From contig JAJEJU010000025.1 in the NCBI GenBank assembly GCA_021390615.1, positions 558,001 to 622,000 on the forward strand: a DNA stretch of 64,000 nucleotides, read 5' to 3'. The stretch is from Rhodanobacteraceae bacterium ZG21-1. Its GTDB lineage: Bacteria; Pseudomonadota; Gammaproteobacteria; Xanthomonadales; Rhodanobacteraceae. The notes under the pieces were generated by a model. It did no database searches. It worked only from the letters and a program-made list of their open reading frames with translations, and was not told the DNA's origin. The position numbers and the translations under genes are program-made. Shown one piece after another: positions 38,033 through 41,430 of the stretch. Numbering within the stretch: position 1 is the stretch's first letter; every line of letters starts with the position of its first letter.

Positions 38033-38530
38033 TCAGGCTCGCTTGCGCACGGCGGCCACGACGATCAGCGCGGCCAGCAGCACGAACCACAGCAGAGTCC
38101 AGAACGGCATCGGCATGCCGAGCACCAGCTGCACCTTGGCGCACTCGCCGGAACCGGTGAAGACCAGCCGCAGCACCTTGGCGAACGGGAAGGCGCTGAA
38201 CATGTAGTCCAGCGGCGGTCCGCAGGAAGGCACCTGGTCGGCCGGCAGCGACTGAATCCACAGATGCCGGCCGGCTACCGCAATGCCGAAGGCCGCACCC
38301 AGCAGCGCGCCTGCGGCGTACACCCAGCGTGCGCCGCCGCGCGGACCGTGGATGGCGCCGATCAGGAAGAACACCGCCATCACCAGGAAGCCGATGCGCT
38401 GGAAGATGCACAGCGGGCAGGGAATCAGGCCCCAATAATGTTCGGTGTACAGAGCGAAACCGAGCAAGGCCACGCAGATCAGGAAGCCGACGAGGCAGGC
38501 GGTGCGATAGGACCAACGAAGCGGATTCAT
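38033..38530 (-). CDS. dsbB: Disulfide bond formation protein DsbB
   Basis: Inner-membrane oxidase that reoxidises DsbA and passes electrons to quinone. The 165-residue protein has four hydrophobic helices and both redox pairs: CPLC (Cys38, Cys41) in the first periplasmic loop and Cys103 / Cys130 in the second. The ATG at 38530 gives the standard start MNPLRWSYRT; longer in-frame starts up to 38563 add only non-conserved residues. DsbA is not in the window. Confidence 0.94.
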   Translation of the reverse strand: MNPLRWSYRTACLVGFLICVALLGFALYTEHYWGLIPCPLCIFQRIGFLVMAVFFLIGAIHGPRGGARWVYAAGALLGAAFGIAVAGRHLWIQSLPADQVPSCGPPLDYMFSAFPFAKVLRLVFTGSGECAKVQLVLGMPMPFWTLLWFVLLAALIVVAAVRKRA

Positions 38531-38717
38531 GGGCATGACGCGGTCTGGCAGGGATGCCGACATTACCTGCTTGCGCCTGACCTGTCAGCAAGGCGCAGCT
38601 GCCCATGAAAAGCCCACGCCAGGCGCGGCTACGGCGCGTGCTCCATCTGCGACCTCAGCCGGCCTCGGGTGGATTCCGGCACCGCCTGGCGTGGCAAGCA
38701 CGCCAGGCGGCGCGGAC

Positions 38718-39437
38718 TCAATGCGCCGCGCTGACTTCGAAGCGGATCCACGCCGGATGGTCGGCGGTCTGCGCCTCGATCGCCGCCACGGTCAACGCCG
38801 TGCGCCCGATCACCAGATGGCTGCCGGGCGTGAGATGCGCGCGCTGGATGGTGGACGGGTCGGTGTCTTCGGGTGCGAACTGCGACGGACTCCATTCGAC
38901 ATCGGCGGACGGCGAGGCGGCATCCGCCCCCCACGCCGTGATGCGCAGGTCGGAGGCGCCGTGGGTGTCCGGCCCGTTCACCCGCACCCGGCCCTCGCGG
39001 GCCAGATAGACTTCGACCTGGCCCTTGCCAGCTGTCGCAGCGTCGGGCGATGCCGCCACCGAGAGGTGACCCCGGCTGGCTCCGCTCGCCGGCACCACGC
39101 TCTCCACGCGGTGCAGGCCGTCGCCGGCAGGCATCAGCTCGTGTTTGCGCAGTTGCAGGACAAATTCGGCCTGTACCCCGCTCGGATAAGCACCGACGGC
39201 CACCCGCGCGCTGTCGCCGACGGCGATCGCGCCCACCGTCCATCCGCCGATGGCCGCCGTGCTGCCAGCCTGGATTTCGATCGGTCGCGCCGCACTTGCC
39301 TGACTCTCATGATCGGTCTGCATGGCTCTACTCGTTTGCATGGAAGTGTCCGACGCAGCCTGTCCAGCGGTCACGCCCAGGGCCAACCATGCTGTCGCGG
39401 CCAAGCCTGCGAAGCCCCCGGGATGTCCGTTGATCAT
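38718..39437 (-). CDS. Exported protein of unknown family, candidate immunity protein for the XVIPCD effector
   Basis: The 239-residue protein has an N-terminal signal-peptide-like region (hydrophobic AGLAATAWLALGVTAGQA, residues about 10-27) and no lipobox Cys, so it is predicted to be periplasmic. A Ser/Thr/Gln-rich linker (28-50) leads to a beta-rich region with many small residues, and no motif that I recognise; it contains no cysteine. It starts 69 bases after the stop of the calpain/XVIPCD gene on the same strand, with a strong AGGAGA ribosome-binding site. Genes for X-T4SS effectors are normally paired with an exported inhibitor in this way, which is the only basis for the immunity idea. 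The function is otherwise unknown. Confidence 0.75.
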   Translation of the reverse strand: MINGHPGGFAGLAATAWLALGVTAGQAASDTSMQTSRAMQTDHESQASAARPIEIQAGSTAAIGGWTVGAIAVGDSARVAVGAYPSGVQAEFVLQLRKHELMPAGDGLHRVESVVPASGASRGHLSVAASPDAATAGKGQVEVYLAREGRVRVNGPDTHGASDLRITAWGADAASPSADVEWSPSQFAPEDTDPSTIQRAHLTPGSHLVIGRTALTVAAIEAQTADHPAWIRFEVSAAH

Positions 39438-39506
39438 CGTTGCGTCTCCTGATGTCGGCGACAGGTGTGCATGCCCCGTAGGCCATGCACATGTCGTCCC
39501 GGTGCA

Positions 39507-40772
39507 CTAAACCGCTGGCCCCTGCCGCTGTTCCGGCGCGGGCTGCTGTGGTTGCGGCTGCTGCGGCTGCGCCGGCTGTTGCGGAGCCTGCGCCGCACGC
39601 TGCTGCCCGGCCTGCTGACAGGCCGCCGAACTCTGCTCGATCGGGGTGTTGGCTCCCTGTGCGGTCGATACGCTGGTCAACTGCCGCACCGGCGAATCCA
39701 GCTTGCCCTCGATGGCGATGGTGCGGCTCGCGGCGTCGTCGCTGAACACCACGTGGTCGATCCGGTTCAGGCCGTCGCGTTTGGCCGCGGCAGTCAAGGC
39801 AGCCGCCAGGTTGTCGCTGTGCTGGTCGGGCGTGCGGCCGTGCTGCTCGTCGAGCTTGTGGATGGCGTCGCGCGCCTGCGTGAACAACGGATGGTCAGGA
39901 TTCGCGGGCTCGTCGAGCCGCGCTGTCGCGGGCGCAGCCCCATGCGCTGCTGCTTCATGCGGATGCGTCGGGGTATCCGCACCTTGTTTCTGCGTCTTGG
40001 TGACCGAGTTGCCGACCGCGATCTCGTCTATGACCTTCGGGATGGCCGACACCGGGATGTCCTGCGGCTGATCGATCCCCCAGGGATTGTTCAGCGACAC
40101 GTACTCCTTGCCATCCTTGTTGTACACGTTGGTGACCGTGTAGGCATGGCCGCCGACCAGACCATAAGGATTTTTCCCGCTTTCCTGGCCCTGTTGGTCG
40201 CCGTCGGATTCCGGCGTGCCGACCACGATCAGCTTGCCCGAATTGAACTGCTGCTGCAGGTTCTTCAACTCGGTCGACGAGGTCTTGGGATCGTAGTAGG
40301 CCTGGGCAGCCTGCCCGGTCAGCGTTTCCAGCGCGTTCTTCGGATCGCCACCGTCGCCGATCTTCGCGTAGCCGCCGCCCTTGTCGACGCCGTTGACCAC
40401 CTTGTCGTTGAGCTTGGCGTAGGCGGCCTCCATCACCTGCGGCCAGATGACCTGCTTGCCGTTGGCGCTGTCGGTGGTATGCCCGTAGTCTTTTCCGTCC
40501 ACCGAATCCGCCGGAATATCCTTGCTCGGATCGATGGTGACTTGCGTCGGCTGGAGCTTGCCGCTCGCGCCGGCGTAGAACGTCACGGTATAGGTGCCGT
40601 TGTCGTTCGCGTGAATCATGTCCTTGAGCGACTGCGGGTTCTTCTCGGCGATTGCGCCCATCGAAGAAAGGAAATAGCAGTCCCCGTAGTTGCCCTGATG
40701 GATGTCGTGCAGGTTCGGCATGCCTGGATTTGGACCAGACGTGTTGAACAGTTCGCTATCAGTCGAACTCAT
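39507..40772 (-). CDS. Calpain-type cysteine protease with C-terminal XVIPCD (probable X-T4SS antibacterial effector)
   Basis: The 421-residue protein has two parts. Residues about 20-255 show the peptidase C2 (calpain) triad: Cys32 in GNYGDCYFLSS, His209 in GGHAYTV and Asn229 in LNNPWG. Residues about 289-385 match the Xanthomonas VirD4-interacting protein conserved domain (NPDHPLFTQARDAIHKLDEQ, GLNRIDHVVFS, IAIEGKLDSP, ending TPIEQSSAAC), which docks effectors to the VirD4 coupling protein; the 386-416 tail is rich in Gln, Pro and Ala, also typical. No signal peptide is present. ATG 40772 has a strong GGGAGGGG site. The N-terminal half is visibly less GC-rich than the surrounding genes. The target protein is unknown. 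An exported protein gene follows 69 bases later; the terminator of rplQ lies upstream. Confidence 0.88.
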   Translation of the reverse strand: MSSTDSELFNTSGPNPGMPNLHDIHQGNYGDCYFLSSMGAIAEKNPQSLKDMIHANDNGTYTVTFYAGASGKLQPTQVTIDPSKDIPADSVDGKDYGHTTDSANGKQVIWPQVMEAAYAKLNDKVVNGVDKGGGYAKIGDGGDPKNALETLTGQAAQAYYDPKTSSTELKNLQQQFNSGKLIVVGTPESDGDQQGQESGKNPYGLVGGHAYTVTNVYNKDGKEYVSLNNPWGIDQPQDIPVSAIPKVIDEIAVGNSVTKTQKQGADTPTHPHEAAAHGAAPATARLDEPANPDHPLFTQARDAIHKLDEQHGRTPDQHSDNLAAALTAAAKRDGLNRIDHVVFSDDAASRTIAIEGKLDSPVRQLTSVSTAQGANTPIEQSSAACQQAGQQRAAQAPQQPAQPQQPQPQQPAPEQRQGPAV

Positions 40773-40856
40773 TACAGCCCCTCCCCTTGTATGTCCCCAA
40801 ATCGCTTTTACCACACTGGCGGGCGATCTAAAAGCACCACACGGTTTCCGGACAGC

Positions 40857-40888
40857 CGAAAACGAAAAGCCCCGGCAGGGCCGGGGCT
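40857..40888 (-). terminator. Intrinsic terminator at the end of the rpoA-rplQ unit
   Basis: Perfect stem AGCCCCGGC (40868-40876) and GCCGGGGCT (40880-40888) with a three-base loop, followed in the minus direction by TTTTCGTTTTC. It lies 26 bases after the rplQ stop and closes the whole ribosomal-protein run. Confidence 0.9.
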
Positions 40889-40913
40889 CTCAGGGGTCAG
40901 CAACGGCCGAGGA

Positions 40914-41297
40914 TCACTCCTCGACGGCAGCTTCCTGGCGCGGGCGGCCGACCAGCTCGACGTAGGCCATCGGCGCATTGTCGCCGTCGCGGAAACCGCA
41001 CTTGAGGATGCGCAGGTAGCCGCCGGGACGCTCGCGGTAGCGCGGGCCCAGCTCGACGAACAGCTTGCCCACGGCTTCCTTGTCGCGCAGGCGCGAGAAG
41101 GCGAGGCGGCGGTTGGCGACGCCGTCGGTCTTGGCGAGGGTGATCAGCGGCTCGGCGACGCGACGCAACTCCTTGGCCTTGGGCAAGGTGGTGCGGATCA
41201 GCTCGTGCTTCACCAGCGAAGCGGCCATGTTGCGGAACATCGCTTCGCGATGGGCACTGGTACGGTTGAACTTGCGTCCGGATTTTTGGTGGCGCAT
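40914..41297 (-). CDS. rplQ: 50S ribosomal protein L17
   Basis: The protein has 127 residues, as in E. coli, and starts [20 protein letters not shown], the L17 signature. It binds 23S rRNA near the peptide exit. It is the last gene of the alpha operon, and here it is separated from rpoA by 295 bases instead of the usual few tens. An intrinsic terminator follows. Confidence 0.98.
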
Positions 41298-41390
41298 GGC
41301 AAACTCTCTTGTCTGTTGTTATGAAAAACCGGCGCTCAGGTCCGGCTTCCGCGGTTACCCGCTGTTGAGCCCGTGATGCAGGCTTTTTTA

Positions 41391-41430
41391 AGAGCGCGAC
41401 CGGCGAAGGTCGCTTCTGGCTTCGAGCGAG
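41391..41430 (-). repeat. REP-like palindrome in the rpoA-rplQ gap
   Basis: On the plus strand AAGAGCGCGAC begins at 41390; GCGACC (41396-41401) and GGTCGC (41408-41413) form the stem, and TTCGAG follows at 41421-41426. It resembles the GAGCGCGAC...GTCGC class of repetitive palindromes of Pseudomonas and Xanthomonadales, and matches another copy at 47164-47195. Confidence 0.5.

Follow-up and report, generated by a model that had tools for sequence, protein, structure and literature searches.

The window analysed here, a stretch of 64,000 nucleotides from Rhodanobacteraceae bacterium ZG21-1 (contig JAJEJU010000025.1, positions 558,001 to 622,000), carries on its minus strand a gene for a putative secreted effector in which a calpain-type cysteine protease is joined to an XVIPCD, the recruitment domain of the Xanthomonadales type IV secretion system (X-T4SS). 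The gene (39507..40772, minus strand) starts with an ATG at 40772 and encodes 421 amino acids, and its frame had been called correctly in a first-pass annotation made from the DNA letters. In Pfam, the protein matches Peptidase_C2 (PF00648) at residues 21-232 (40077..40712, minus strand) with 76.3 bits (cut-off 23.8, E-value 2.8e-21), and X-Tfes_XVIPCD (PF20410) at residues 287-387 (39612..39914, minus strand; genome match C18:597612-597914) with 105.3 bits (cut-off 24.9, E-value 2.8e-30, 101/101 model positions). Both scores are far beyond chance, and none of 14 control genomes matched either profile. The XVIPCD had been placed by eye at residues 289-385, and the profile search agrees to within two residues at each end. 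A Gln/Pro-rich C-terminal tail (about residues 388-421, with the stop codon 39507..39611, minus strand) follows the domain, and the N-terminus, as judged by eye, has neither a hydrophobic stretch nor a signal peptide, again as first described. The protein thus has a C-terminal XVIPCD, a Gln-rich tail behind it and no signal peptide, the features by which X-T4SS effectors (X-Tfes) are recognised.

The protease domain belongs to peptidase family C2, with its profile match over the cut-off, a Cys/His/Asn triad and a preceding Gln at the oxyanion-hole position (Gln26). The triad that the first-pass annotation had named (Cys32, His209 and Asn229) is invariant in an alignment of 18 calpains. In the wider set of 47 calpains described below, 46 have Gln where the window protein has Gln26 and the remaining one has a gap there, and because the catalytic Cys and His are present in 47/47 and the Asn in 46/47, calpain activity appears to be under selection. 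A structural model of the effector, built from 22 sequences with a mean predicted local distance difference test score (pLDDT) of 70.5 and with weak confidence in the linker, some loops and parts of the XVIPCD, aligned to the calpain protease core 6bdt_C over 220 residues (Z 20.6, root mean square deviation 2.9), while the best non-calpain row reached only Z 10.5. The modelled protein therefore has the calpain protease-core fold, as the earlier reading had proposed, and Foldseek also matched its model, weakly, to the XVIPCD-bearing structures 7r6s and 7mu9 (E 0.013-0.019). For the calcium sites of eukaryotic calpains, which do not define the bacterial homologues, we compared the domain by hand, with what we take to be the catalytic-residue numbering of calpain-2. 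Using the site residues given in the consulted part of PMC4631099 and an alignment with calpain-9 that ends before site 2, only Asp23, nine residues before the catalytic Cys, seems to be kept from site 1, and the stretch behind NPWG, soon after which the domain ends, looks too short for site 2. Because of these two observations the protease probably has no need of calcium.

Directly behind the effector gene, 69 bp away on the same strand, lies a gene of 239 amino acids (38718..39437, minus strand) that the first-pass annotation had missed. It has AGGAG 8 bases ahead of its ATG, and its hydrophobic N-terminal segment is a predicted export signal; from this segment, its linkage in homologous loci and its model, we regard it as a candidate immunity gene, of a family that we call immB. 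No family for the protein was found in Pfam, NCBIfam or PHROGs up to an E-value of 0.1. As an unbiased test of linkage, we searched for the partner in 233 genomes of the family, scoring up to 12 candidates per genome, and found homologues in only three, namely the source genome and, at 36-38% identity, two genomes from a different genus. The same three genomes hold the best-matching calpain domains, and each time the partner adjoins a calpain of the clade defined below as B, directly behind it. The partner model is nearly all-beta (pLDDT 79.3), and it had no significant match in the PDB (Foldseek best E 0.063, VIA-align best Z 7.7). The modelled partner is therefore without an identified known inhibitor fold, which is not proof of a new one. 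A phage or plasmid origin was considered and set aside: no match in phages was found, seven plasmid records held distant C2 proteins with none reaching 80% coverage, and PHROGs had no family for the effector or for its partner.

If the effector is to be secreted by an X-T4SS, the genome should encode one, and the first-pass annotation had suggested a search for virB/virD4 genes. The genome (5.52 Mb, 25 contigs) does hold an X-T4SS locus and has 20 XVIPCD matches over the cut-off, five of them at C18:1140932-1151381, where they are surrounded by the vir genes. VirB4, VirB6, VirB8, VirB9, VirB10 and VirD4 each matched their own Pfam family, while VirB1 and VirB11 were named from their SLT and T2SSE domains, respectively, together with position, and VirB5 was assigned by position only. 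The locus also encodes a VirB7-like lipoprotein of 187 amino acids with only a sub-cut-off match to TcpQ, close in size to the 130-185 amino acids of X-T4SS VirB7 proteins (PMC6536674; this and the other articles cited were consulted in part, and statements drawn from them refer to those parts). Pairs of effector and partner genes can be seen by eye inside the vir locus. One XVIPCD frame (L017; G000:C18:1528384-1528680) has one in-frame TAG and is probably a broken effector gene. Because the XVIPCD, the X-T4SS locus and a candidate cognate immunity protein bearing an export signal are all present, the earlier interpretation of the gene as a type IV-secreted effector is supported, with the newly noticed partner adding independent weight to it.

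To place the pair in a wider context we collected calpains by PF00648 from 233 family genomes (14 with a match), 398 order genomes (18 with a match; an overlapping set) and 395 genomes of a second family (23 with a match; overlapping the order set), together with 22 loci from a scan of genome contigs. This gave 57 unique calpain open reading frames, of which 47 were kept for the linkage count; L110 (a contig-edge fragment duplicating another gene), L147 (Nocardia, 2742 amino acids, no partner) and eight distant calpains, kept as a contrast, were left out. A same-strand partner adjoins 43 of the 47 calpains, and it belongs either to immB (12 genes, 213-320 amino acids as called) or to a second family, immA (31 genes, 145-231 amino acids as called, with one miscalled at 480). 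The miscalled gene is the partner of L131, found only inside a longer overlapping frame with a wrong start, and L181 and L182 are near-copies. Only four calpains (L144, L197, L085 and L179) have neither partner, and none of the eight distant calpains has an immA or immB neighbour. As seeds for the partner profiles we used 5 immA and 3 immB genes that neighbour calpains and so match by construction; the profile matches lay near calpains in 43/44 and 16/16 cases, duplicates included, a biased figure because the loci were fetched around calpains. By a simple rule, 40/43 partners have a hydrophobic N-terminal segment and 16 a motif resembling a lipobox. The protease-domain tree separates the 12 immB rows, the window protein included (clade B), from the 35 others (clade A; 31 immA, 4 none) with 100/100 support. 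Calpain clade therefore matches partner family and, because this matching is accompanied by tight linkage and export signals, the sequences have the pattern of toxin-immunity pairs. As in polymorphic toxin/immunity systems, a toxin domain occurs with differing delivery parts and a clade-specific partner, and immunity by the partners is predicted.

On this evidence, we think it probable, if well short of certain, that the window gene encodes an X-T4SS-delivered cysteine protease toxin, acting most likely in the periplasm, with a cognate immunity partner. The XVIPCD would recruit the effector to VirD4 and the X-T4SS would pass it into a touching bacterium, steps that we infer because of the established role of this domain. 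There the calpain-fold protease would stop growth by cutting at least one prey protein, the periplasm being the most likely site; the antibacterial role is a prediction from sequence. The partner would be exported to the producer's own periplasm, as its putative signal suggests, and, to judge from gene linkage, inhibit the protease, protecting the cell from self-damage or from attack by its sisters; immunity of such a kind can serve against self-intoxication (Oka 2024, PMC10933484). The export signal of the partner points to the periplasm, as signal peptides are found on the immunity proteins (X-Tfis) of effectors that act there (PMC6536674). Several points weigh against this interpretation. 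Some X-T4SS effectors act, or are predicted to act, in the cytoplasm, such as LtaE (PMC11253431) and XAC3266 (PMC6536674), and a thiol protease would be unusual, though conceivable, in the oxidising periplasm. The partner fold lacks a significant PDB match, which leaves gene linkage to carry the inhibitor role. The partner also has no lipobox by the simple rule and no Lys/Arg ahead of its hydrophobic segment, and its gene lies downstream of the effector, whereas X-Tfi genes are usually upstream (PMC6536674).

The place of action could therefore be a different one. The same pair might work with the protease hitting an essential protein of the prey cytoplasm, as Cpe1 does with GyrB and ParE, in which case a cytosolic form of the immunity protein would also be made, translated from a second start within the gene, past the signal peptide. 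Both halves of this idea have precedents, since LtaE is a T4SS effector with a cytoplasmic target (PMC11253431), the cysteine protease toxin Cpe1 cleaves GyrB and ParE (PMC12136450), and an internal start has been proposed for X-Tfis of X. citri (PMC6536674). In 8/31 immA and 4/12 immB genes, counts uncorrected for chance, an internal ATG follows closely on the signal peptide and has AGGA or a better match 5-7 bases ahead of it. These immA genes lie beside L059, L057, L139, L087, L130 (its second), L127, L058 and L056, and the immB genes beside L187, L196, L184 and L186; ahead of the ATG stands either AAGGA (AGGA in L056) at 7 bases, where most encode KDxxM, or AGGAG at a distance of 5 bases. 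A second, cytosolic immunity product from such an ATG is possible, but the motif may be a by-product of conserved residues, as the KD codons from which it arises in immA may be kept for the sake of the protein. Moreover, the internal ATGs of the window partner have only 3-base Shine-Dalgarno matches, and the export-type segment is kept by 40/43 partners. We therefore consider cytoplasmic action an unlikely alternative, although one to be taken seriously, to a toxin that acts in the periplasm.

It is less likely still that the effector is delivered but does not kill. Calpains are mostly processing proteases, and the window protein might process a specific protein of the prey or of a host, which could also be eukaryotic, and so manipulate the recipient, with the neighbouring gene encoding a regulator or chaperone. 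In favour of this, LtaE binds prey regulators and blocks metabolite synthesis (PMC11253431). However, a chaperone for an effector that lacks a signal peptide should carry no export signal, and two exported-type partner families that track the calpain clades form the pattern of toxin/immunity pairs. We therefore judge manipulation improbable and keep to the interpretation of a toxin with its immunity partner.

The surroundings of the pair suggest how it reached its present position. It is flanked upstream by a gene at 40914..41297 and downstream by one at 38033..38563 (both minus strand), which, from their sequences, we take to be rplQ and dsbB, respectively. Between these two genes the window genome has a gap of 2350 bp that contains just the effector and its partner. 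We searched for dsbB in 30 relatives, 29 of which gave the locus (rplQ fell outside the fetched stretch in 3/29), and found that the gap is about 72-339 bp in 22/29 and about 808-1347 bp in 4. The pair is thus, by this comparison, an insertion between rplQ and dsbB. A possible terminator-like hairpin lies between rplQ and the effector (40868..40882, minus strand) and two overlapping ones lie behind the immunity gene (38612..38628, minus strand), but the evidence for them is weak, as the region holds 4 such hairpins against 2.4 (standard deviation 1.5) in shuffled sequence, which is not a clear excess. No match to a sigma-70-type promoter was found in 38400-41400. This, and the fact that the window genome is the only one of its genus among the 233 searched, would fit a relic in which the effector gene no longer works or the neighbouring gene is unrelated to it. 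As the frame is intact, the triad and the XVIPCD are full and the linkage of effector and partner is conserved in other genera, we consider a relic very improbable, and a functional toxin and immunity pair remains our preferred interpretation.

The two parts of the fusion have their best matches in different proteins. The protease part best matches calpains that lack an XVIPCD (48%), whereas the XVIPCD (residues 278-416) has its highest identity, 58% among the matches listed, with an effector encoded in the source genome's own vir locus. A simple mosaic of two parents was nevertheless rejected, since an effector of genome G113 outscores the resident one among the matches listed (134.4 vs 126.6 bits, at 49% identity), and no more than the break between protease and XVIPCD is clear. 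No second calpain-XVIPCD protein was found in the 233 family genomes (with up to 7 candidates scored in each), the contig scans or the 398 order genomes. The idea that the window fusion is unique was dropped, however, because six proteins from the 395 genomes of the second family pass both Pfam cut-offs. These are clade-A proteins of Lysobacter-type genomes (L190-L194 and L198) that form one tree group (100/100); because this group lies far from the window protein, the tree implies that the fusion arose at least twice. Two other proteins were not counted as fusions, namely L188, with a sub-cut-off XVIPCD match of 19.5 bits, and L179, which matches our own XVIPCD profile weakly and has no such match in Pfam. 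Another type of C-terminus is found in clade A, where 19/35 proteins match the profile of a tail of about 67-80 residues with TGDP...GPVMTR or a similar sequence. We rejected the Gln-rich clade-A tail as a degenerate XVIPCD, as the profile comparison gave a probability of 2.6%. The tail is also not a general tag in the source genome, where its profile matched only four calpains.

Taken together, we lean, by a narrow measure, towards the view that calpain-fold proteases of Lysobacterales, some Comamonadaceae and others are a clan of antibacterial toxins, whose two exported immunity families would be bacterial counterparts of calpastatin. The protease module would move among delivery parts (an XVIPCD, an N-terminal extension or a Gln-rich TGDP tail) and would have been captured by the X-T4SS at least twice.

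We take cd00044, or CysPc, to be the calpain domain. It is named among the X-Tfe domains in the legend of Fig. 5 of a 2019 review (PMC6536674), so that, by this legend, a papain/calpain-type domain in an X-Tfe has been noted before; no experiment on a CysPc X-Tfe was found in the consulted parts of that review. The first-pass annotation had called the calpain warhead not an established X-T4SS toxin, which holds in that we found no experiment on a calpain X-T4SS effector among the listed matches in the open-access literature (most subscription journals lie outside this scope), while the listing of CysPc and the six further fusions show that the combination itself is not unique. A text search of selected X-T4SS literature did not find the word ‘calpain’. 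The Lysobacter-type fusions resemble the window protein in having both Pfam domains over the cut-off and in keeping the catalytic residues, but they belong to clade A and have immA upstream, the usual X-Tfi order (PMC6536674), whereas the window protein belongs to clade B and has immB downstream. Conversely, the clade-B calpains of Dyella marensis type (L126/L077 and L076) have the best-matching catalytic domain (48%) and immB directly downstream, as in the window, but carry an N-terminal extension in place of the XVIPCD. Cpe1 and Cpi1 are a papain-superfamily protease toxin and its immunity protein, as we propose for the window pair (PMC12136450). They differ in being linked to the type VI secretion system and to contact-dependent inhibition and in targeting GyrB/ParE, and Cpe1 is not of the C2/calpain type; the papain-like peptidase domain, other than C2, that marks Cpe1-type toxins is absent from the effector, for which Pfam reported no peptidase family besides PF00648 up to an E-value of 1. 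The bacterial calpains surveyed by Rawlings in 2015 belong to the same peptidase family, with no X-T4SS tag or immunity partner described in the consulted part of that article, in which a reviewer suggests that WXG-fused calpains are toxins of the type VII secretion system (PMC4631099). Zhang 2012 gives a list of toxin families of papain-like type, and the part consulted does not mention ‘calpain’ (PMC3482391). In L. enzymogenes and X. citri, toxic effector homologues without an XVIPCD have been described as ‘atypical T4Es’ (PMC10989847), a possible parallel to the clade-A calpains. As far as searched, the window gene represents an independent and new fusion of a kind noted in the 2019 review (PMC6536674), and the immA and immB families and their clade-matched pairing are undescribed. 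According to Rawlings, the selective pressure that keeps calpains in bacteria is unknown (PMC4631099); if our interpretation is true, these proteins gain a role as weapons. A calpain-fold cysteine protease would also join the tested X-T4SS arsenal, described as mostly peptidoglycan enzymes and lipases, with metallopeptidase-type domains (M10, M13 and HExxH) listed too (PMC6536674), and immA and immB would add new natural inhibitors for proteases of this fold.

Some further observations concern other calpains in the set. A group of distant calpains of 437-499 amino acids (L078-L083, L104 and L105), from genus g23, which is presumably Rhodanobacter, and from the second family, is likely to have a different role, because neither partner family adjoins them. 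In another family genome, the clade-A calpain L085:1444-2733 (plus strand) lacks the catalytic Asn, a normal domain end and an adjacent partner and is probably degraded. The source genome itself encodes four further clade-A calpains, at L056:8128-9201 (minus strand), L057:8805-10133 (plus strand), L058:8624-9673 (minus strand) and L059:8333-9457 (plus strand), each followed directly by immA and with a Gln-rich tail that ends in GPVMTR or a similar sequence; as called, the L058 calpain has no in-frame start codon ahead of the Gln26 position. Upstream of each of the four lies, in divergent orientation, a gene for a coiled-coil-like protein that has a membrane segment (L056:9318-9923, plus; L057:8230-8841, minus; L058:9853-10452, plus; L059:7609-8301, minus). 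The encoded proteins end in ...CGG.PC..LD.K...WG..GEY.LL, six matches (two distant ones included) occur in this genome, and a role as delivery partner or regulator is possible. About 4 kb from one of these calpains, L056:13261-14334 (plus strand) resembles an export-apparatus protein of type III secretion, presumably of the SctU/FlhB type.
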